20,962 nt of DNA from positions 1 to 20,962 of the IMG/VR virus record IMGVR_UViG_3300042554_000442; one strand, given 5' to 3'. The notes beneath the pieces are model-generated. The model saw nothing but the letters and a program-made list of their open reading frames with translations, searched no databases and was not told the DNA's origin. Of the stretch, positions 3-20,962 are shown one piece after another. Source of the stretch: a virus. The translations under genes were made by a program, and so were the position numbers. How positions within the stretch are numbered: the first letter of the stretch is position 1; each line of letters starts with the position of its first letter.

Positions 3-800
3 CAGACCATAACTGCTACTAGTGCAGTGACGGTCATGTCCTGTGCCATCAAGCGCCTTATAGGTACTGGCACAGTCGAAATGACCACAGACAACGGGAC
101 AACCTGGACTCCTGTGACTGTTACAGCCGGTTGGACTATTGTTTCTATACCTGCCCAGACTCTTGTAAACCCTGTTTGTGGTTTCCGTTTGGCAACAAGT
201 GGCGATAGCGTTGCCATTGATGTTGTCCAAAACGAGTCTGGTACTGGGTCAGTTCCTCCAGCTAACAGCCCAACTACACCTCTTATTACGACTTCTGCAA
301 CAGTAACACGTTTTGCTGACGACCTTCAACTTACAGGTACAAACTTCAGTAATGTTTATAATCAGACTGAAGGTACAATAGTACTTTATTTCTCTACAGA
401 TAACCTAGCTGCGGATAGTACAATCCTCTGTATTGATGATGAGCAACTAAATCAAATAAACCAAGTAGACTGGAGATCATTAGCGTCAGTCGCACTACGT
501 ACTCGTGTTAGAAGTGCCAATGCATCATCTTGTGATATTAACCCAGGTAGCTTTGGTTTTGGAGTACTTATTAAAGTAGCTCATGGTTTCAGACTAAATA
601 ACTTTGCTTCATCAATTAACGGTAATGCTGTACCTACTCCAGATACTACTGGTGATATGCCTTTAACAAATATGACCAGGCTTACATTTGGACAGCGTGG
701 GATAACATCTTTGATACAAGGTATCCTTCACCTACGGTCCCTAGACTTGTATAGTATTAGGCAGTCTAACTCTGTCCTTCCAACATTGTCTACACCGTAA
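3..800 (+). CDS. Tail fibre / receptor-binding protein, C-terminal part (5'-truncated)
   Basis: The reading frame is open to the left edge, so the real start lies outside the window; the GTG at 27 is probably internal. The visible part begins with beta-rich sequence (DNGTTWTPVTVTAG), then a linker of the kind TTSATVTRFADD, which in phage fibre and head-spike proteins commonly precedes a final lectin-like domain. The last 160 residues look like a concanavalin/LamG-type beta sandwich (NQTEGTIVLYFST, GFGVLIKVAHGFRLNNFASS, ending ILHLRSLDLYSIRQSNSVLP). From family knowledge this is a carbohydrate- or receptor-binding domain at the tip of a fibre; the exact ligand cannot be read. The second half of the gene is noticeably AT-richer than the terminase and portal genes downstream. 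The stop TAA shares its last base with the ATG of the next gene. It could instead be a head fibre. Confidence 0.7.
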   Translation, partial: QTITATSAVTVMSCAIKRLIGTGTVEMTTDNGTTWTPVTVTAGWTIVSIPAQTLVNPVCGFRLATSGDSVAIDVVQNESGTGSVPPANSPTTPLITTSATVTRFADDLQLTGTNFSNVYNQTEGTIVLYFSTDNLAADSTILCIDDEQLNQINQVDWRSLASVALRTRVRSANASSCDINPGSFGFGVLIKVAHGFRLNNFASSINGNAVPTPDTTGDMPLTNMTRLTFGQRGITSLIQGILHLRSLDLYSIRQSNSVLPTLSTP

Positions 801-1003
801 TGAAACCTGAAGTACAGGAATTCCTCGAAAGCCTGGAAAAAGAGGACATAGCTGATCTCAAAGAGATCATCCAGAACAAACAACACAAGAAATGGATATT
901 CACTAATGTCCATTACCTCCTCAAGGGTCTTGTGTTTTTGATTACTACCTGGATTCTCTTTGAGACGTTCATCAAGAACCTTTTCATTAAGCTTATTCAT
1001 TGA
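800..1003 (+). CDS. Small single-pass membrane protein, candidate holin
   Basis: This is a 67-residue protein. An acidic, helical N-terminal half (EVQEFLESLEKEDIADLKEII) is followed by a basic patch (KQHKKW) and one hydrophobic stretch around residues 38-58 (LLKGLVFLITTWILFETF), then a short basic tail. The ATG overlaps the preceding stop as TAATG and no Shine-Dalgarno sequence is visible, so translation is probably coupled to the fibre gene. By position (fibre - this - large terminase) and size it matches T7 gene 17.5, the holin, which is also about 67 residues. That is synteny and topology only; there is no sequence motif that proves holin function. It does not look like a small terminase, which would be longer and soluble. 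Holin is an inference of moderate strength. Confidence 0.6.
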   Translation: MKPEVQEFLESLEKEDIADLKEIIQNKQHKKWIFTNVHYLLKGLVFLITTWILFETFIKNLFIKLIH

Positions 1004-10300: not shown

Positions 10301-11343
10301 TCACAGGTGGTACAGGCGTAGGACAGCAGAGACGTGTTGCCTCAAATACTGGAACTGTCCTGACAGTCAACGGGGCCTGGGATACAAATCCTGATGCTAC
10401 CAGTACCTACAAGATTTCAGGTACTGTCCAGTCTCGTGGTGTTGCTACCCAGGAACAGGCATTCACAAATATACCTCTGCCTATCTGGCCTTCAAGGATA
10501 GCTATCCCTTCTGGCGCTACAGTAAAAGTCCGTGCTCAGACTAACGCTTTGATTGTTAGTAGTTGTGAAATCGAGGGGTACTCTTATGGTATCCGTACTG
10601 CTGGCGTTGTACCAAACAGGAATATCAAGATCACGGACAATATCTTCCGTGGTATTGGATACTTTAATATAGACCTTACCGCAGCCATTAACTCACACGT
10701 TGAAGGTAATACATTCTCTGATGTAGGTCGGTTGTCTACTACCCTTGATACTCGTGTTATCCAGATTGGTAACTACGCCCAGAATATTGCCATTAGAAGC
10801 AATACCTTTTCTGACGATGGTAAGGCAAAGTTCCTTGTGTACGTTACCTCAGGGGCCAAGAGAATCTCTATCTTTGATAATGATTTCCTGACCCCTAACA
10901 ATGGTGAGGCCTCCGCTGCTGCAATGTTCCTTGTGAACTCTGACAACAGCCTTTGGCAGATCACAGAAGATAACAACCGCTTTGGCCCTCTAGTAACTGT
11001 TAAGCGTAATGGTACATCTGTTGGTAGGTATCTTTATGACGGTACTGTAACTCAGGGTACCAACAAATCCACTGGAGTTACCCTGAATACACGTTCAGGT
11101 GCAATTACCATGAACGCTGCTGCATTGGCTGCTGATACCACGGTGTCTTTTACTCTAACCAGTACAGGCATTGACTCAGATGATGAAATCTCTGTGTGGC
11201 ATAGCAGTGCAGGAACCCTTGGGTCTTACATGGTTCATGCTGTTCCTGGAAATGGTGCAGCAACTATTTACGTCCGGAACATTACAGGCGGCAGTCTTTC
11301 CGAAGCTATCGTCCTAAAGTTCCTCATTAAGAAAAGACAATAG
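7372..11343 (+). CDS. Tailspike with pectate-lyase-like beta helix (probable polysaccharide depolymerase)
   Basis: At 1323 residues this is the largest complete gene. It starts with TTG directly after the previous stop (TAATTG). Residues 1-77 (NLNNPVTAVAIINRNNQALR, SMLSDLDMNSYRIRNLPEP) form a virion-attachment domain common in phage fibres. Residues 84-123 are an Ala/Ser-rich stalk. From residue 129, VKDYGALGDGVTDDSRAF is the hallmark entry to a pectate-lyase-3 type right-handed beta helix, running to about 740. Residues 779-1018 are an inserted region of short repeats. Beta-helix-like rungs return at about 1055-1200 (IKITDNIFRGIGYFNI, EGNTFSDVG, IAIRSNTFSDDG). Residues 1224-1320 are a C-terminal beta domain often found on phage fibres, probably for trimerisation or folding. 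From family knowledge it binds and cleaves capsule, O-antigen or exopolysaccharide. Catalytic residues cannot be placed by eye. Confidence 0.88.
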   Translation: MAKVTLSDLENLNNPVTAVAIINRNNQALRVALEKALFRDGSTPHSMLSDLDMNSYRIRNLPEPVEDSDAVTKEYADGLIGDIANAEANAVAAAASAVSSASSAAAASAFATIAQAAADSADGLAGLASVKDYGALGDGVTDDSRAFIDAVNANGIVVIPETDDFYVLNDMIQIPEGHKVMGLGFPTLLCEVGRKRESTVTLTFSATSGNNITITASAPYFFDDQWSKRDIRVFDSGFSAEPKFVWLGTRVSTTQITGCSVLNGNNFAAGETLSSTGPHVWEYGRAAFDFKSFSQLENVRIVTTLNAHQTRYVNGRWACGLSIGDPWMNYLGDDELKEFIVVRNVHVHGNEQENRVIHGHHAYGWVENCLFENVLVTGKANFAFVNHWTTDAMYNEQAYTTKAWQPCKNTYRNCHAFVNPPFGMPFANAGNDIRIPVPSGQSSPPWWNTVSTGDAVTISSSVSRLPTPLQTGLNYYVIKRPAPYSQSWYCIQLAETNADALAGNAIHLGVMNTGEAGTMTITKVSGGSASQCLMALTKTGRNGFRWSGAAFSTFESCTTDFGEAFEIFPGDRAGYAQNIDPNDTCSGLEYKSCIAYDPDGFGFQCAANGNIGGTYGDIANAGGPNDIWYGNQWGVNSSLSVDNCRVVMSRSSYTRALPFSFAWMNKVTMTDCEVETDNASLSKHGVNVYGVTDFRMDNSYITTRLGALVRNSKMAVFEGSRFSNRAVNYASSSPTAFAVGATERTTSLYSALAVGDTTLRFNQFAVAGSATANMELTTAIPSVAGTGYAVGNVLSVAGGTKTTTATLIVSSIDGSGGITGVTIDVAGVYSAIPTVTNNNNNAVTGGAGTGARIYLRWGVDSVTVTDAGSGMFDAPRVIFVISAGDLSSVIRPSATATLTSTGADEGEGVASIAVTDEGDGMSVIPSIILSDGGMTICPGSIIAYEVTGTATAGASTTLTDGAATWTTNIFTDYIVEITGGTGVGQQRRVASNTGTVLTVNGAWDTNPDATSTYKISGTVQSRGVATQEQAFTNIPLPIWPSRIAIPSGATVKVRAQTNALIVSSCEIEGYSYGIRTAGVVPNRNIKITDNIFRGIGYFNIDLTAAINSHVEGNTFSDVGRLSTTLDTRVIQIGNYAQNIAIRSNTFSDDGKAKFLVYVTSGAKRISIFDNDFLTPNNGEASAAAMFLVNSDNSLWQITEDNNRFGPLVTVKRNGTSVGRYLYDGTVTQGTNKSTGVTLNTRSGAITMNAAALAADTTVSFTLTSTGIDSDDEISVWHSSAGTLGSYMVHAVPGNGAATIYVRNITGGSLSEAIVLKFLIKKRQ
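9706..10431 (+). repeat. Insertion with degenerate beta repeats inside the tailspike
   Basis: Residues 779-1020 of the tailspike break the beta-helix pattern. At least three degenerate copies of a motif V-x-hydrophobic-D-x-G-x-G-hydrophobic-x-x-x-P are visible: VTIDVAGVYSAIPTV (821-835), VTVTDAGSGMFDAPRVI (862-878) and IAVTDEGDGMSVIPSII (912-928). A further related segment is VAGTGYAVGNVLSVAGG (783-799). They are followed by a module GTGVGQQRRVASNTGTVLTV (981-1000). These resemble short beta-repeat modules shared among phage adhesins. Confidence 0.6.
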
Positions 11344-12086
11344 TGAATAGAGACGTTTTCTTTACGTACGTACGAAGGAATCCCTTTGGAGGTCGGTTAA
11401 CCCCTCAACAGGTAGACGGCCTCACGAGGATTCTGGACTACTGGGAGGCTAAGTACAAGTCTCGTGACATTCGTTGGTTGGCGTACATGCTGGCTACAAC
11501 GTACCATGAGACTGCCCACACCATACAACCCGTCAGGGAAATGGGTGGTGAAAAGTATCTCCGCTCCAAGAAGTACTACCCCTGGGTAGGTGAAGGCCTA
11601 GTCCAGGTCACCTGGGAGGAGAACCACAGGAAGTTTGGGGCTACCAGACCAGGCCAGCTTATGACCTGGGAGAAAGCCCTCCCTGCTCTTTTCGAGGGAA
11701 TGATCCACGGGAAGTTCACAGGTAAGAGATTGTCACAGTACTTCAATGGTGACGTAGAGAAGCCCCGTGAGGCCCGTGGGATCGTCAACGGTACTGATAA
11801 GGCCGGATTGATTAAAGACTACTACACGGCCTTCCTAGGGGCTTTACGACCCGCTCTGGCTGAGGAGCCTCCGAAGGATGTTACTCCTGGGGCCGACAAG
11901 CCTGATACCACACCTACCACAAAGGACCCTCAGATTGCTATCGCTGTTGGCTCTACTGTTATTCCTGCTGTGGTGGCAGCGGTGACCTCTCCCTGGGGTG
12001 TAGCAGCCTTAGTGGTGGTTGTAGCTGCTCTTGGTATCGCAGGGTACCTTTACTTCCGTAATAAGGAAAAGTACCTCGGTGTTTGA
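11343..12086 (+). CDS. Endolysin (chitinase/GH19-like muramidase) with C-terminal membrane segment
   Basis: This 247-residue protein cleaves peptidoglycan. The catalytic region spans roughly residues 20-165. YHETAHTIQPVREMGGEKYL holds E56, the likely catalytic acid, and E66. It is followed by GEGLVQVTWEENHRKFG at 83-99, the standard substrate-groove motif of phage GH19/lysozyme-like endolysins. Residues 173-196 are a Pro/Thr/Asp-rich linker. Residues 197-236 are strongly hydrophobic (IAIAVGSTVIPAVVAAV and WGVAALVVVVAALGIAGYLY), with a short basic end RNKEKYLGV, predicting one or two membrane helices. Most T7-type endolysins lack this tail, so the enzyme may be membrane-tethered or may combine with a pore-forming role. 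The GTG start overlaps the spike stop (TAGTG), and the gene end overlaps the i-spanin start by 8 bases. The enzyme call is firm; the topology is inferred. Confidence 0.88.
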   Translation: MNRDVFFTYVRRNPFGGRLTPQQVDGLTRILDYWEAKYKSRDIRWLAYMLATTYHETAHTIQPVREMGGEKYLRSKKYYPWVGEGLVQVTWEENHRKFGATRPGQLMTWEKALPALFEGMIHGKFTGKRLSQYFNGDVEKPREARGIVNGTDKAGLIKDYYTAFLGALRPALAEEPPKDVTPGADKPDTTPTTKDPQIAIAVGSTVIPAVVAAVTSPWGVAALVVVVAALGIAGYLYFRNKEKYLGV

Positions 12087-12333
12087 TTTCATCATTGGCT
12101 GGAAAGAAAAGCTCATTGGCATTGGTCTGGCCCTAGTATTATTCTGGGGTTGGATCACCAAGGTAAAATGGCAAGCCCGTAGGGAAGGTGCCAAGGCCGT
12201 AACCGACGCCATCAAGACAGAAACAGAGAAAACCAAGAATGAATGGCAAAAGATTGATGATACCCCTCTTGGGGTTGACGATGCTCTTAGGCGGTTGCGT
12301 GAGCGAGCCCGTCGTGAAGGTCACAACCCCTAG
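12079..12333 (+). CDS. Rz: i-spanin (Rz-like inner membrane spanin subunit)
   Basis: This is an 84-residue protein starting at GTG 12079, inside the end of the endolysin gene. An earlier in-frame ATG at 12031 would add 16 polar residues before the membrane segment and is less likely. Residues 12-27 (LIGIGLALVLFWGWIT) are a single N-terminal membrane anchor. The rest is a charged periplasmic helix (KWQARREGAKAVTDAIKTET, then DDALRRLRERARREG), the usual shape of Rz. A ribosome site AAGGA (12063-12067) lies 11 bases upstream. The o-spanin gene begins within it in another frame. From family knowledge the two subunits bind across the periplasm and fuse inner and outer membranes in the last step of lysis. 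Architecture, order and partner make the call strong even though spanins diverge in sequence. Confidence 0.85.
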   Translation: MFDFIIGWKEKLIGIGLALVLFWGWITKVKWQARREGAKAVTDAIKTETEKTKNEWQKIDDTPLGVDDALRRLRERARREGHNP

Positions 12334-12454
12334 ACTGGCTGCCCCTCCTGTAAGTACCATCGATGCCTTGGAGCACAAGTGCAAGGTTCAGAAAGACGCA
12401 GGAACCTGTAGGTACATTATCCAGCTAGAGAAACATTACGAGAAATTGAATTGA
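12239..12454 (+). CDS. Rz1: o-spanin lipoprotein (Rz1-like)
   Basis: This 71-residue lipoprotein precursor has the signal peptide MNGKRLMIPLLGLTMLLGGC and a lipobox LGGC, so cleavage and lipidation at C20 would leave a 52-residue mature protein on the inner face of the outer membrane. The mature part has Pro-containing sequence (TTPRLAAPPVS), as in Rz1, and two further cysteines, C48 and C57, that could form a disulphide. It starts in a different frame inside the i-spanin gene, overlaps it by 95 bases and continues 121 bases past its end. This is the overlapping, not fully embedded, spanin arrangement. It is one of the clearest signs that the host has an outer membrane. Its stop shares bases with the next start (TTGA). 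The ribosome site is weak, so coupling to the i-spanin is likely. Confidence 0.88.
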   Translation: MNGKRLMIPLLGLTMLLGGCVSEPVVKVTTPRLAAPPVSTIDALEHKCKVQKDAGTCRYIIQLEKHYEKLN

Positions 12455-13493: not shown

Positions 13494-15722
13494 ATGCCCC
13501 GTAGTGCTGCTGCTACAGTAGAGAATAACTTTGTAAATGGATTCGTTACCGAGGCTACTGCACTAAACTTCCCTGAAGCGGCAGCTACGGATACTGATAA
13601 CTGTGTGTTTAATGTAGACGGTTCTTTTGAACGTCGCCTGGGGATAGACTACGAGTCGTCATTTGATACCCTCTCGGTCAACCGTGATGGTAAAGCAATG
13701 GCGACTTTTTTGTGGTCAGCAGCCAATGGTGATGGTGACAATAACCTAGTCGTCTCCCAGATAGGCTTGACGCTTTACTTCTATGTCATTGGCCAGAGTA
13801 GTCTGTCCTCAGGTATTCTAGGAGATTCTGTTGATCTGTCTTCCTACGTTACTGACGTTACCGTTAATCCCGAAGAGATCGAGTGTTCCTTTGCTTCCGG
13901 TAAGGGGTACCTGTTCGTCACACATCCGTACATGGAACCAGTGTACATCGAGTACGACGGGACTACAGTTACCGCCTCCCAAATCACAATTAAGGTCCGA
14001 GACCTCGAAGGACTAGACGATACTCTCGACGTAGACGAACGACCAAGCACCCTCTCTGACGAGCACAAGTACAACCTTTACAACCAGGGCTGGGCTCCCT
14101 ACGAGACAGGTGGTGTAAACGATCCTAGACTCTCTGGTATAGCCGCAGGCTCTGCTGATACGCTTCCCACGTCGTACCTCGCTGGTGACCCATTAAGTAC
14201 CTGGGATGCCAACAGAGCGGATTACCCCAGCAATGCTGATGTCTGGTGGCTTTACAAGTCAGCCAATGACGTCTTCCAGCCCAAGATCGCCTCTGCTGTA
14301 ACCCGAGGGAACTCCCCTGCTCCCAAGGGTCATTATATCCTAGATGCCTTCGACATGGACAGGTCTGCTGCTGTGTCCATGTCAGTCAACACAGGCGCAG
14401 GGAGTGTCTCTGTGGCTATTGCGGGACTTCCTGTAGAGTCCGCTGGAGTCTTCCGTCCAAGGTGTTGTGCCTTCTACGCAGGCCGTGTCTGGTATGCTGG
14501 TGTAGATGCCCAGGGGTATTCCAATAAGCTTTACTTCTCCCAGATCGTAACCGACAGCAATAAGGACTTTGGGGCTTGTCATTCCCAGAATGATCCGACC
14601 TCAGAACACTCCTTTGATACCCTTGCTACCGATGGTGGTACTGTCCAAATTCTAGACTGTGGGACTGTCATCAAACTAGTCCCTCTCCACTCTAGTCTGG
14701 TGATCTTTGCAACCAATGGTATCTGGACGATCTCAGGTTCTACCGGTATTGGCTTTACGCCTACCGACATGTCTGTGAATAAAATCTCCAGTAACCCGAA
14801 CCTCTCAGCAAGTTCCTTCGCAGATGTCGCCGGTATGCCTGCGTGGTGGACGACTGACGGAGTGTACATCGTAGCCCAGAGCAATCAGTCTGGTGGTGTC
14901 CAGGTCACGAGTCTCTCTGAGAAGAAGATCAAACGGTTCTTCATTGACGATATCCCTCCCGAGTGTAAACGCTACGCCAAGGGGTACTACAATAACCTCA
15001 CTAAGGTAATCCACTGGGTCTACCGCAGTACGGTTCCGAGATCAATTACAGAGCGGTACGAATACAACAGGGTTCTTTGCTTCAACACTGTCACCCAGGC
15101 CTTCTACAAATGGTCTGTGGAAAGCCCTACGGTTACCATAAACGGTATTGTCTCAGTTAAAGGCAGAGTTTCTAGTATTGATCTTGAGATTGTTACCAGC
15201 GGTGGTTCTGACCTTACGACAAATACTCTAGAAGATATTTACGTCTCAGTAGGTGAAGACGAAGAAATCGCTGGGGTCTTCAAGTACCTCGTCAGCGAGA
15301 ACAACGGTCCTGCATGGGATGTTACCTTTGCTGAGGAGTACGATCCCAGGTACGTAGACTTCTATAGTCAGGATAACGAAGGTGTAGACTACGAGAGCTT
15401 TATCATTTCAGGCTACAGGCTACGTGGTGAAGCCCAGAAGAAATTCCAGAGCAACTACGTCTTTCTGTTCCTCGATAGTCTCGATAGCAATGTCTTGTAC
15501 TTCGGTGCTGTCTGGGACTACGCTAATAGCCAGAACACAGGAGACTTTGGTACCCGCCAGTTAATCGACACTACGTCTGTTACAGGCAGGAATTACAAGT
15601 TCAAGAAGCTAAAAGTCCGTGGCTCAGGATTGTCACTCCAGTTCAAAATCCAGAGTATCACAGGAGAACGGTTCAAGATCGTAGGCTGGAGTGCCTTCGA
15701 CACAGGTAACTCAGTCGTATGA
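13494..15722 (+). CDS. Tail tubular protein B / nozzle protein
   Basis: This 742-residue beta-rich protein begins NNFVNGFVTEATALNFPEAA, then ATDTDNCVFNVDGSFERRLG. This opening is the signature of podoviral nozzle or stabilisation proteins equivalent to T7 gp12. The next several hundred residues carry beta-propeller-like content (VWYAGVDAQGYSNKLYFSQI, FATNGIWTISGSTGIGFTPT, PAWWTTDGVYIVAQSN), matching the platform domain of this family, which is usually 700-800 residues long. From family knowledge six copies form the tail tip below the adaptor ring and carry the fibres. A modest purine-rich site precedes the ATG at 13494. Its stop overlaps the acetyltransferase start as ATGA. It probably holds the tailspike in place, but the contact cannot be seen here. 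Confidence 0.88.
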   Translation: MPRSAAATVENNFVNGFVTEATALNFPEAAATDTDNCVFNVDGSFERRLGIDYESSFDTLSVNRDGKAMATFLWSAANGDGDNNLVVSQIGLTLYFYVIGQSSLSSGILGDSVDLSSYVTDVTVNPEEIECSFASGKGYLFVTHPYMEPVYIEYDGTTVTASQITIKVRDLEGLDDTLDVDERPSTLSDEHKYNLYNQGWAPYETGGVNDPRLSGIAAGSADTLPTSYLAGDPLSTWDANRADYPSNADVWWLYKSANDVFQPKIASAVTRGNSPAPKGHYILDAFDMDRSAAVSMSVNTGAGSVSVAIAGLPVESAGVFRPRCCAFYAGRVWYAGVDAQGYSNKLYFSQIVTDSNKDFGACHSQNDPTSEHSFDTLATDGGTVQILDCGTVIKLVPLHSSLVIFATNGIWTISGSTGIGFTPTDMSVNKISSNPNLSASSFADVAGMPAWWTTDGVYIVAQSNQSGGVQVTSLSEKKIKRFFIDDIPPECKRYAKGYYNNLTKVIHWVYRSTVPRSITERYEYNRVLCFNTVTQAFYKWSVESPTVTINGIVSVKGRVSSIDLEIVTSGGSDLTTNTLEDIYVSVGEDEEIAGVFKYLVSENNGPAWDVTFAEEYDPRYVDFYSQDNEGVDYESFIISGYRLRGEAQKKFQSNYVFLFLDSLDSNVLYFGAVWDYANSQNTGDFGTRQLIDTTSVTGRNYKFKKLKVRGSGLSLQFKIQSITGERFKIVGWSAFDTGNSVV

Positions 15723-16183
15723 CATTAACCCTTAAGATAGCAACCTACGATCATTTCCCTGAAATCCTAGAAATGTTCGAAAGGTTTCATGGGAGTTCAA
15801 ACTACAAGAATTGTGAGTTTGACCAAAGCAAAATGTCCGATGTTGTTATCAATGCAATTGAAGACAAATCCTCTCAATGTCTTGTGGTTTTAGTAGACGA
15901 GAGTAATTCTGCTAAAGGTGTTCTATTCGGTTCAATCAGTGAGCAGATTTTCAATAGAGAACGTACTGCATTTGAAATCGTATGGTGGGTAAACCCAGAG
16001 TACAGGAATACCAGGGCATCCATAAGACTATTTAAGGCTTTTGAATATTGGGCTAAGAAAACTAACTGTACAAATATTGTAACCGGAGCAGCAGAAGAGA
16101 CAAAGGAAACTGCTGGTGTAAAAAGATTTTACGCAAAGCACGGTTACTCCCCTGTAGAATGTAATTTTATAAAGAGAATATAA
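15719..16183 (+). CDS. GNAT-fold acetyltransferase-like protein
   Basis: This 154-residue protein has the overall plan of a GNAT N-acetyltransferase. N-terminal helices (FPEILEMFERFHGSS) lead to a strand SQCLVVLVDE, then GVLFGSI, then the central strand and following helix FEIVWWVNPEYRN to SIRLFKAFEYWAKKTNC, and it ends in AKHGYSPVECNFIKRI. The acetyl-CoA loop, normally R/Q-x-x-G-x-G/A, reads RNTRAS at residues 96-101 and lacks glycine. Similar proteins occur in podoviruses at the place of T7 gene 13, just before the internal virion proteins. Their substrate is not established, and some may act structurally. The gene is more AT-rich than its neighbours, hinting at separate ancestry. It overlaps genes on both sides (ATGA and TAATG), so it is translated with the tail block. 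No substrate is inferred. Confidence 0.75.
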   Translation: MTLTLKIATYDHFPEILEMFERFHGSSNYKNCEFDQSKMSDVVINAIEDKSSQCLVVLVDESNSAKGVLFGSISEQIFNRERTAFEIVWWVNPEYRNTRASIRLFKAFEYWAKKTNCTNIVTGAAEETKETAGVKRFYAKHGYSPVECNFIKRI

Positions 16184-16692: not shown

Positions 16693-19600
16693 TTGAATAT
16701 TGAAAATCAGCAAGCCCCTGAAGAAACCTCGCAAGCCCCTGAAGAAACCTCGATGGGTGATGGTTCCGTAGGTGGAATCATCCCTGTCGGACCTGTAGCT
16801 TCCCCTCCAGGGGACTTTGATGAATCGATTGTCTTTGGTGAAGAACCAGAAGCAGTCGGGGACGATCAGGTCGTCTTCACAGATACGGGTCCTGTCAAAG
16901 CTGGGTTAGACTTAAATCTAGCAAAGCAGAAGGCAGCCAAGATGCACTTTGCCCTCGGAGAGAAATCTCCGGGGCTTGACGTATTGACGAACCTTTACGC
17001 CTCGGGAACCGAAGGGTCTCTCAGGGAATCCCTGTCAAGGGAAGAGTCCCAGCAGCAGGATGAGTTCAGGAACCAGATCATCAGGGAGAAGGCAGCCCGT
17101 GGGGAGCCGATCAACCCAGACGACATTGCTGCTCTGGCTGGCCTGGCCAAGTACATCCCAAAGAGTTCACCTGAGACTGTCTTCGAAAGGAAATACGCCA
17201 GTGCTCTGATCAACTCGGCACAAGTCTTGGTAGGTGGCTCTGAGTCTCCGATCTCCCAAGGGTACCGTCAGGACCCTGAGAGGGTAGCAGACACAACGAA
17301 CATCGCTGAGAGACTAATTGCCCGTCAGGAAATCATCAAGAATGTCCTCCATGATGTCGAAGGCATTGCCAAGGGACAGTCATGGGGAGGCTGGCTGGTC
17401 GATCAAGCCAAGAGCTTTGTTCCTCTTTACGGGACAGTAAAGCTCGGCTGGGGTGAGAAACGCTCGGACAGTTACCTTCGTGGTAATATCGTCGAAGACA
17501 TGGTCAATCACTTCTGGCGTATGCCCCTAGACGACCTGCCAACCAAACTCAGGGAGTACCTGTTTAACATCGCCAAGGACAATCCCTCACTGGCCCGAGA
17601 GGTCGCTGGGGCCATGTTGTCGCATACCTCCAGTAGCCAGTTTATCGACAATGCCTTTACGGTCATAGACGTTGCAAGCGTGACCCCCATTAGAACGGCC
17701 ACCAGAGCCGCAGGGAAGACCGTGGAGGCTGTTAGGGATATCCGGAGTACCCGGGTAGCAGAAAGAGAATACGCCCTCCAGAAGGCCTCCCCAGAGGCTC
17801 CTAGAGCACCAGTCACAGACCCAGCTATTGAAGCCACCAAGAGTATCGTAAAGGCCAATGCCGACGAGACCCCTGATCTCCCGCGTATGCTTGAGGTCAT
17901 GGGTGATCCCGTCAGGGCCTCTGAGGTCACGGCTACGTCCCGTGCTGCTGAAATCCTTGGACAGGGTGATGCCTCTGGTCAAGCCAAGAACCTCATGCGT
18001 ACCGTCATGGATGTCTTCCGACCAGAGAAGGTCGTCACAGGGGCACCAGAGGGTATCGCTGCTGTCAGGGCTGAGAGGCTCATTGAACACCTTAAGACTC
18101 ATTCAGAGCGTATTGCTACGGCTGTTACGGACCTGGTGAAGGTCTCCAGGGCACCCGAGGAAGCCTACGTCAAGGCTATCCAGAGGGAGAGTCAAGCCCT
18201 TCAGGAACAGGTCATCCATGGTGGTGCAACCAACGATGCGATTATCTCAGTCAACTGGGTAAAACCAGAGGACACGTTAAGCAACGTAGCTAGTGTCTCT
18301 GTGTCTCTCGGCAAGACCGATGGTGGGACATTCTCGACTGTAGCTGAAGCAATCCACTACGGTAGCCAGAGATACGGTCTTGTTGTCAATGCTGCTAACG
18401 TCCAGCAGGTAGGCCAAGGGTACGTCCTTAAGGTCGTCAGGAACATTGATGAGACCTCTGATGCCTTCAGGGAGTCGATCAAGACAACAAATAACACCCA
18501 GAGGTCATCCCTATGGGATACCCTTCTAGGAGGTCTACGTTCTGCTGATGACCGGGTTTCTCCGTTTATGCGAGAGAACCGTAAGGCTGCTGTTAATGCC
18601 CATAGTCTCTTGGAGAAGACCTTCAAGGACATGATCTCTGACATTGGTAGGGTCAACAAGAAAGAACGGGAAGAGGTTTTCCGTGTCATGAAGGCCGACA
18701 AGATGGAAACCGATCCAGCCTGGAAGGCCAAGTACGCTGGAGAGGAACCTCCTCGTGGACGCTTCAGGGATACTGTCGAAGACTTCGAGGTCTCTTTCGC
18801 CAGAGCTAATGGAGGAAAGATTCCGACTGAAGCCCAGACCAAGGCGTACTTTACGTACCGCCAGTTGAACGACTGGGACTGGATACTCCGCAATGTCGGT
18901 GTCTACAGGGATCGTGCACGTCAGGGATACGGAACCGTTGTCCTTAAAGACAGGGAACTCCACCCTGACACGAACCTCATGAGGGACAAGCTCGACCAGT
19001 TCATTGGTAAGGCCATTGACGATCTTCCATATAACTCGACTACAGATGCTTCGGTCCTGATCCATAACGCAGGAGCAGAACCTAGAAGGCTTCGTCTCCA
19101 TTCGATCAAGGCGGATGCTACCCAGTTCGAAGAGATCAACAGGCTTCGGTCTGAAGGGTACCGGATCGTCAAGGTAGAAAACCCTACCCGTGTTCCTTTT
19201 GAGGACAGACTGGGTAAGGACACGGTGAACTACATCGTTACCAAGGATGTAGAACTTGCACCTCTGGAGTTTACCCAGATACCTTACCGTCCCGGATGGC
19301 ATACCGAGTACGCCCAACCGTTCTTTGTAAAGCAACCCAAGGGACGTAAAGGTGGTGGAAATGGGTTACCCGATAGCTGGATATATGAGGGTGATACGTC
19401 TGTCTTCGGGTTCAACACCAAGGCAGAAGCAACCAAGTACGCTACAGCCATGGAGCAAGCCCGTATACTCCTGAAGGAAGGACGCAGGGCTGAACTCGAT
19501 GCGTTCCTGCCTAAGAATCTCCCGTGGACTATTAAGGAATTTGAATCATTATTTCAGTCAAAGCCGTTATCTAATGGCAAGATGACGGAGCCGATGCTTG

Positions 19601-20962
19601 ACATTAACTCCCCGTTCTTTCAGGTTGAGTCAGGCAAGTACACCACAGATGCCTACGGGGATAAACTTCGTAGCCACTTCACAGGCTTTGAAGATACCAT
19701 CAGGAGCCCTCACAACGACTTTGCCAACGTAGACAAGAAGTTCTTAGGCCAGAGAGACAACCCCCTGTGGACTGTCTCCGAACGTGGATCAGAACTCAAA
19801 CCAATTCTTGAATTTGCTGACGAGATAGACCCTGGACTGTCGATGGACAGGACCATGGCTAACATCATGCGTACGAGGACCTTTGCTGATTACAAAATCG
19901 GACAGGTCGAAGCATGGATGTCCCAGTTCTCCCACCTCCTCAGGGAAGGTATTGAGAACAAAGAACTCGTCATGTCTAACCCGACACATTACATCCACCA
20001 TGGGGAATTCGTAAGGCTTACCCCAGACAATGCTGCTGAACTCCAGGCAGCCAAGAACTCCCGTAAGGCCATGATCGAACTCCTGGGTACGGAGAGCGAC
20101 TTCCAGCTTCGTTTGGACTCGTACCGTTACAAGCTCATGGACTCGATTTACAATGGTGACTTTGGCTTCATAGGAGGTCAAGAGGCTTCAAATAAAGCAG
20201 CTAATTGGCTTGTACACCGTCCTGGTAAGGACCCTGTGAGTACCCTCCGTCACATGGCCTTTCACTTCAACATCGGATTGTTCAACCCCTACCAGCTTGT
20301 CCAGAACGCAGCTACCATGAGTAACGCGATAGCTATTGCTGGGCCTGTAAATGGCTTCCAGGGGGCTGCTGCAATCCTCCCTATGCGCTGGGCTTTGACC
20401 GACGAAAGGGTCCTGGATAAGGTCTCTCGTAACATGAGTTCATTTGGGTGGAAGCCCGAGTGGTTCAAGGAGTCCTACCAGGAACTCAAACGTACAGGTA
20501 AATGGATCATCGAAGGTGAGCATACCTGGAAAGATGACATCTCAGGCCCGTCTATTGTTCAGGGCAACTACGGGAAGTTCCTTGACTCCGGATTGTTCTT
20601 CTTCAAGGAAGGTGAACGTGCTACCCGTCTGGCTTCATGGAATGCTGCTTACCTCGAATGGCGTAAAGCCAACCCGAGTGCAGTCATCAACGATGCAGTC
20701 CGTAGGGGTTTGATTGACCGTTCAGACCTGATGTCTGCCAACATGACCCGTGCAAGTAACGCTTCATGGCAGCAAGGTATCCTGTCTATTCCCGGTCAGT
20801 TCCTGTCGTACCATGTACGCCTTGCAGAGCAGATGCTCGGAAAGAGGCTGACCTGGCAGGAGAAAGCCCGTGTGGTTGGTGTCAATTCTGCTCTTTACGG
20901 AATACCGATTGGTGTCTTTGGATCGTCAGGGTTAGGTTCACTCACCGGAGGTCTGTATCCTG
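16693..20962 (+). CDS. Large internal virion / DNA-ejection protein (runs off the right edge)
   Basis: A single frame stays open from the TTG at 16693 to the window end, giving at least 1423 residues without a stop. The TTG follows the previous stop directly (TAATTG), as at the tailspike; an ATG at 16753 is the alternative start. The N-terminus is acidic, Pro-rich and contains a duplicated heptapeptide. Most of the rest is helical and charged. Hydrophobic stretches appear late (FHFNIGLFNPYQLVQNAATM near residue 1192, and VNSALYGIPIGVFGSSGLGS near 1397). The segment ILSIPGQFLSYHVRLAEQML is typical of the C-terminal part of podoviral gp16-like ejection proteins. Unlike T7 gp16, I see no lytic transglycosylase motif in the visible part. 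By position after the gp14-like gene it should form the trans-envelope ejection channel. No separate gp15-like gene precedes it. Confidence 0.82.
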   Translation, partial: MNIENQQAPEETSQAPEETSMGDGSVGGIIPVGPVASPPGDFDESIVFGEEPEAVGDDQVVFTDTGPVKAGLDLNLAKQKAAKMHFALGEKSPGLDVLTNLYASGTEGSLRESLSREESQQQDEFRNQIIREKAARGEPINPDDIAALAGLAKYIPKSSPETVFERKYASALINSAQVLVGGSESPISQGYRQDPERVADTTNIAERLIARQEIIKNVLHDVEGIAKGQSWGGWLVDQAKSFVPLYGTVKLGWGEKRSDSYLRGNIVEDMVNHFWRMPLDDLPTKLREYLFNIAKDNPSLAREVAGAMLSHTSSSQFIDNAFTVIDVASVTPIRTATRAAGKTVEAVRDIRSTRVAEREYALQKASPEAPRAPVTDPAIEATKSIVKANADETPDLPRMLEVMGDPVRASEVTATSRAAEILGQGDASGQAKNLMRTVMDVFRPEKVVTGAPEGIAAVRAERLIEHLKTHSERIATAVTDLVKVSRAPEEAYVKAIQRESQALQEQVIHGGATNDAIISVNWVKPEDTLSNVASVSVSLGKTDGGTFSTVAEAIHYGSQRYGLVVNAANVQQVGQGYVLKVVRNIDETSDAFRESIKTTNNTQRSSLWDTLLGGLRSADDRVSPFMRENRKAAVNAHSLLEKTFKDMISDIGRVNKKEREEVFRVMKADKMETDPAWKAKYAGEEPPRGRFRDTVEDFEVSFARANGGKIPTEAQTKAYFTYRQLNDWDWILRNVGVYRDRARQGYGTVVLKDRELHPDTNLMRDKLDQFIGKAIDDLPYNSTTDASVLIHNAGAEPRRLRLHSIKADATQFEEINRLRSEGYRIVKVENPTRVPFEDRLGKDTVNYIVTKDVELAPLEFTQIPYRPGWHTEYAQPFFVKQPKGRKGGGNGLPDSWIYEGDTSVFGFNTKAEATKYATAMEQARILLKEGRRAELDAFLPKNLPWTIKEFESLFQSKPLSNGKMTEPMLDINSPFFQVESGKYTTDAYGDKLRSHFTGFEDTIRSPHNDFANVDKKFLGQRDNPLWTVSERGSELKPILEFADEIDPGLSMDRTMANIMRTRTFADYKIGQVEAWMSQFSHLLREGIENKELVMSNPTHYIHHGEFVRLTPDNAAELQAAKNSRKAMIELLGTESDFQLRLDSYRYKLMDSIYNGDFGFIGGQEASNKAANWLVHRPGKDPVSTLRHMAFHFNIGLFNPYQLVQNAATMSNAIAIAGPVNGFQGAAAILPMRWALTDERVLDKVSRNMSSFGWKPEWFKESYQELKRTGKWIIEGEHTWKDDISGPSIVQGNYGKFLDSGLFFFKEGERATRLASWNAAYLEWRKANPSAVINDAVRRGLIDRSDLMSANMTRASNASWQQGILSIPGQFLSYHVRLAEQMLGKRLTWQEKARVVGVNSALYGIPIGVFGSSGLGSLTGGLYP
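16711..16752 (+). repeat. Perfect 21-bp tandem duplication in the N-terminal coding part of the ejection protein
   Basis: Two exact adjacent copies (16711-16731 and 16732-16752) each encode QAPEETS in frame. The second copy ends directly before the ATG at 16753. Exact identity at the DNA level suggests recent slippage or selection for a repeated acidic linker. Confidence 0.9.

Follow-up and report, generated by a model that had tools for sequence, protein, structure and literature searches.

Identification of a GH19 endolysin in a podophage fragment

The question raised by this locus is what a hydrophobic C-terminal tail contributes to a phage endolysin that has no holin gene directly beside it. 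The DNA analyzed here (the window, 20,962 nucleotides) comes from a Zobellviridae-like podophage, of which it is a 21-kb fragment, with a TerL that is 64–70% identical to those of the Zobellviridae/Cobavirinae phages SIO1, P12053L, ICBM1, CRP-4, and CRP-5. The virion module contains a GNAT acetyltransferase gene (15719-16183; PF00583, E 1.5e-7), as has also been reported for cobaviruses, and a 1423-aa ORF running off the end of the window (16693-20961) occupies the position that in cobaviruses belongs to the large internal virion protein.

The endolysin is encoded on the + strand by an ORF at 11343-12086 with a GTG start, giving a protein of 247 aa whose N-terminal MNRxxF is common to its homologues. 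The preliminary description, made from the nucleotide sequence, had proposed a complete GH19-like catalytic domain, which was borne out by a profile match to PHROG 181 (endolysin; E 1e-19), by a PDB profile search with the 4ok7 endolysin as top match (E 5e-13), and by Foldseek, where GH19 chitinases and phage GH19 endolysins ranked top with modest E-values.

11343..11858, + strand: catalytic GH19 domain (endolysin residues 1-172; PHROG, PDB profile, AlphaFold2/Foldseek)

Glu56 and Glu66 were invariant among 56 aligned endolysin homologues, and we take them to be the GH19 catalytic Glu pair. Profile and structure comparisons alike showed a GH19 fold with the conserved Glu pair, and judged by its sequence and model the protein is a peptidoglycan hydrolase of the GH19 family that serves the phage as its endolysin.

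Architecture of the C-terminal tail

The catalytic domain is followed by a linker and a hydrophobic tail, with the following parts:

11859..11927, + strand: acidic Pro/Thr-rich linker (residues 173-195; from sequence; low pLDDT, 52-59)
11928..11981, + strand: tail helix 1 (residues 196-213; AlphaFold2 helix; weakly hydrophobic, rich in Gly/Ala/Ser/Thr)
11982..11990, + strand: SPW break between the tail helices (residues 214-216; AlphaFold2)
11991..12059, + strand: tail helix 2 (residues 217-239; AlphaFold2 pLDDT 87-90; predicted firm transmembrane segment)
12057..12086, + strand: cationic C-terminus RNKEKYLGV and stop codon (net charge +2; sequence and charge count)

A C-terminal membrane domain had been placed at 11931-12086, which corresponds exactly to residue 197 to the stop codon, and the Pro/Thr linker said to precede it was likewise found, with an acidic character (net charge -2 over residues 166-197 by charge count). 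The tail comprises two hydrophobic stretches broken by SPWG and followed by FRNKEKYLGV. The first (residues 198-216) has a Kyte-Doolittle mean of 2.03 and a Wimley-White octanol sum of -0.5 kcal/mol, and the second (residues 220-238) reaches 2.38 and -5.5 kcal/mol, respectively. The structural prediction that had been called for (AlphaFold2, 56 sequences, mean pLDDT 89) returned two helices at residues 196-213 and 217-239 separated by the break at 214-216, with small residues making up 53% of helix 1. Two separate 19-mers with a Kyte-Doolittle mean of at least 2.0 within the last 60 residues were seen in 3 of 200,000 random draws from the window proteome, but never in 100,000 shuffles of the endolysin or in any other window gene tested; chance is thus excluded as the origin of the hydrophobic C-terminus.

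The suggestion that the tail forms two membrane helices held for its second half only in full. Helix 2 is firmly predicted by sequence and model as a transmembrane (TM) segment, whereas helix 1 is marginal on the octanol scale, making two membrane helices likely but not certain. In the model of a relative (L136), helix 2 alone was confident and helix 1 was short and poorly predicted; the tail may therefore be a single TM, and the safer statement is one firm helix accompanied by a weak or surface helix. The hydropathy profile contains no hydrophobic segment N-terminal of residue ~196, in keeping with the earlier view that the topology differs from that of N-terminal SAR endolysins (P1 Lyz, 21 R, Mu gp22): the idea of a membrane-tethered endolysin is shared, but those enzymes depend on an N-terminal hydrophobic segment and Sec export.

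The tail among GH19 endolysins

About 100 homologous endolysins were collected, including phage records, and these fell into three groups (final assignment partly by eye): enzymes without a tail, enzymes with a Pro/Ala linker and a short cationic amphipathic helix, and enzymes with a hydrophobic tail and a cationic end. As to whether the tail is conserved, a point raised at the outset, it was found across many GH19 endolysins, mostly from alphaproteobacterial phages, and hydrophobic tails also end the endolysins of two terL relatives of the window phage (L136 and L163). When tails were compared by HHalign, those of the window group matched the L025 group with probabilities of 90-92% and those of the L027/Brucella group matched the L025 group with 54-73%, and by these alignments the tails of the three groups would constitute one domain. 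HHalign probabilities of the tails against 2TM, 3TM, XhlA, phrog_35975, and Siskin profiles were 4% or less. On a tree of the enzyme domain, the tail label required 8 changes, at least 5 of them forced by supported branches. A tblastn search of phage records with the tails alone (low-complexity filter on; one query approximate at its start) returned phi2LM21 itself as sole match.

The endolysin C-termini of L025, L049, L060, L066, L069, the window, and L136 share an aromatic residue, an Arg/Lys-Glu-Arg/Lys stretch, and a Gly followed by a hydrophobic last residue. Overlap with the next start codon appears a doubtful source of the terminal Gly-Val/Ile conservation, since the overlaps vary between loci. 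One further record (L131, IMGVR_UViG_3300042914_001077) carries the endolysin gene without a single base difference.

The lysis cassette and a candidate holin

Downstream of the endolysin gene lie two spanin genes:

12079..12333, + strand: 84-aa Rz-like i-spanin with an N-terminal TM (weakly matched by a PHROG Rz-like profile, E 0.067)
12239..12454, + strand: 71-aa o-spanin, an Rz1-like lipoprotein with the lipobox LGGC (matched by a PHROG Rz-like spanin profile, E 0.0013)

The i-spanin gene begins with a GTG at 12079, sharing its first 8 nt with the end of the endolysin gene, and is itself overlapped by the o-spanin gene. No holin gene was found directly adjacent to this cassette, exactly as first reported, the next genes being those for the i-spanin and then the o-spanin. 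A scan for promoters and terminators gave nothing useful above chance. A small membrane protein is, however, encoded elsewhere in the window:

800..1003, + strand: 67-aa candidate holin or lysis regulator (N-terminus acidic, single TM at residues 40-58; directly upstream of terL)

The 67-aa protein has no Pfam or PHROG holin match. With a profile seeded by an 82-aa lysis-cassette protein that follows the o-spanin in L022 and is related to phrog_35975, it was the best match beyond the profile's own family over all ORFs searched (E 0.09), and HHalign aligned it to this lysis-cassette family with a probability of 87% (38% identity over 45 aa). The phrog_35975-related family occurs close to GH19 endolysins at several other loci, amphipathic- and TM-tailed alike. 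Small TM proteins were found at or near the slot upstream of terL in many terL relatives; the proteins filling this slot are often unrelated. The copy in L131 is 88% identical to that of the window. If a holin, pinholin, or releasin is encoded separately, the 67-aa protein is by sequence the best, if weak, candidate.

Many TM-tailed relatives likewise retain a 3TM (PF11351-like), XhlA-like, or phrog_35975-like membrane gene nearby. The earlier suggestion that the phage has no dedicated holin was accordingly not upheld: the absence of a holin is unproven because the record is a 21-kb fragment and holds the candidate at 800-1003, and relatives keep membrane genes of their own. Such a candidate would suit a tail that is a plain affinity device for membrane or envelope, doing no more than enriching at the membrane an endolysin that a holin releases in the canonical way, and the short cationic amphipathic helix found in the same place in many relatives would suit it too. 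Helix 2 of the window endolysin is, however, full-length and strongly hydrophobic (Wimley-White -5.5), unlike the amphipathic helices, and we consider an affinity tail of this kind very doubtful.

Exchange between the tail and a separate two-TM gene

The neighborhoods of the homologues differed according to the tail. A small two-TM gene adjoined 28 of 35 amphipathic-tailed endolysins compared to 4 of 38 TM-tailed ones (6/38 with one more seed), counts that are exploratory because the two-TM seeds were picked after the neighborhoods had been inspected. A seed-free hydropathy rule for the two-TM gene gave 21/35 and 7/38, respectively. Fisher's test on 4/38 versus 28/35 yielded a naive p of 1e-9, the rows being related, and a tree-controlled test of tail against two-TM gene was not significant (5 independent pairs on supported branches, ~1-2 of them informative). 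Several amphipathic-tailed loci without a two-TM gene are exceptions to the pattern. As to whether relatives lack holins, TM-tailed endolysins were mostly without a two-TM gene, but many of them kept 3TM, XhlA-like, or phrog_35975-like genes nearby.

The clearest case was offered by Brucellaceae-type prophages, whose enzyme domains are 50-59% identical and whose i-spanins and o-spanins are homologous in most loci, with an XhlA-like gene in some of the cassettes. Falsochrobactrum copies combine an amphipathic tail with a 69-aa two-TM gene between the endolysin and i-spanin genes, whereas other Brucellaceae-type loci have the TM tail and lack the 69-aa gene (L124, L125, and L126 compared to L101, L102, L028, L031, and L038). 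A Brucella-type lysis cassette was also seen in L111, titled Bacillus subtilis SK6B4, which is probably contamination or a mislabelled contig.

This pattern suggests that the tail stands in for a separate two-TM protein. Since the tail tends to occur where the small membrane gene is missing, it may do part of a holin's job, and the scarcity of the two-TM gene beside TM-tailed endolysins is compatible with a holin-like role. An origin of the tail as a fused copy of the neighboring two-TM protein was not supported, as HHalign gave no similarity between the two and direct fusion is therefore not demonstrated.

Comparison with characterized endolysins

Endolysins with a C-terminal TM are already known (Siskin, M4Lys, Enc34, LysAP), and the layout described here is a variant built on GH19. 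Enc34-type endolysins (Siskin gp38, M4Lys of BSPM4, Enc34 ORF39) resemble the window protein in having an N-terminal catalytic domain, a linker, a C-terminal pair of hydrophobic helices running from weak to strong, and a cationic end, and in being followed by an i-spanin and an o-spanin. They differ in their catalytic domain, which is PHA02564 as opposed to GH19 by profile and structure, and in a holin gene directly upstream of the endolysin. Homology between the window and Siskin tails was not detected (HHalign probability 0.5-2.7%, a weak test with a single Siskin sequence). The Siskin endolysin is annotated as N-in, C-in with two C-terminal TMs. LysAP from Acidovorax phage AP1 likewise carries a TMD at its C-terminus, close to a cationic end and required for localization and lysis in E. 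coli, but it has a GH24 lysozyme fold, one predicted TM, and an adjacent holin, HolAP. The catalytic family, in turn, is shared with the 4ok7 endolysin, Acinetobacter podophage endolysins, and NV1.1.1; where the window enzyme has a TM tail, these have either nothing beyond the catalytic domain or a short amphipathic helix. By analogy, the window endolysin would work most like the Siskin, M4Lys, Enc34, and LysAP proteins.

The experimental work on these proteins bears on how much of lysis the tail might accomplish. M4Lys, when expressed alone, requires its TMD to lyse E. coli and does so independently of Sec, but the TMD alone is non-lytic. A tail that oligomerizes and permeabilizes or depolarizes the inner membrane, with no other holin needed, would agree with lysis of E. 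coli by M4Lys or LysAP alone, with the lack of an adjacent holin in the window, and with the frequent absence of a two-TM gene at TM-tailed loci. We nevertheless consider a self-sufficient tail unlikely, given the non-lytic M4Lys TMD, the membrane genes (3TM, XhlA-like, or phrog_35975-like) persisting in many TM-tailed relatives, the 67-aa candidate holin, and the failure of the tail to match holin-like profiles by HHalign.

LysAP has been termed a C-terminal SAR endolysin and its lysis is azide-sensitive. If the model put forward for it applied here, the firm helix would be exported, with the enzyme periplasmic and inactive on the membrane until a pinholin or releasin collapses the potential. 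Helix 1 resembles SAR segments in its weak hydrophobicity and high content of small residues, and the one-TM protein of 67 aa could be the pinholin or releasin, comparable to Mu gp25, the releasin that Mu has in place of a holin. The window endolysin, however, has no N-terminal export signal, a C-terminal segment has been argued to be unable to send a folded N-terminal domain to Sec by known routes (PMC8943055), and M4Lys lyses independently of Sec; export of this kind appears improbable here. How endolysins with C-terminal TMs are translocated was left open by the Enc34 authors (PMC8943055).

Proposed mechanism and implications

The explanation we favor, if by a modest degree, is a GH19 endolysin tethered by its C-terminal membrane tail, with the tail replacing in cis a two-TM protein, the 67-aa protein setting the timing, and the spanins finishing lysis. 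The need for the TMDs of M4Lys and LysAP in expression tests was counted in its favor. The GH19 fold, the two tail helices, the conservation of the tail, and the cassette pattern are computed results; membrane insertion, topology, timing, and the role of the 67-aa protein are inferred. Most likely, the endolysin would be made in the cytoplasm and its tail inserted into the inner membrane through helix 2, with the cationic end cytoplasmic and helix 1 either forming a hairpin with helix 2 (N-in, C-in) or resting on the membrane surface. The flexible linker would then hold the catalytic domain at the membrane. Depolarization or opening of the membrane at the time of lysis would release the enzyme or give it access to the wall, with the tail acting in cis instead of the two-TM protein that adjoins tail-less relatives. 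The timing would be set by a different small membrane protein, in this phage probably the one encoded at 800-1003, and the spanins would complete the outer-membrane step. More speculatively, and in our judgement with a low probability, the tail may represent a distinct domain family that has replaced a separate two-TM holin-type protein several times in GH19 phages, so that one chain combines a wall hydrolase with a membrane-lesion or lesion-partner function while one further small membrane protein provides the timing.

Cobavirus endolysins (ICBM1, ICBM2, P12053L, SIO1), from the phage group to which TerL (64-70% identity) assigns the window, were published as lacking membrane-anchoring domains, with a canonical holin route inferred (PMC6775973). 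This statement fails for some terL relatives, namely the window phage, L136, and L163. The layout of Enc34-type endolysins thus recurs on an unrelated enzyme domain, GH19, and is widely distributed, and it bears on the question raised in the Enc34 paper of how endolysins with a C-terminal membrane domain reach the wall (PMC8943055). The exchange between the tail and the two-TM gene is the most useful new element, though no more than suggestive, and the Brucellaceae-type cassettes, which differ mainly in the tail or the 69-aa gene, provide a natural comparison in which the function of the tail is testable by swapping.
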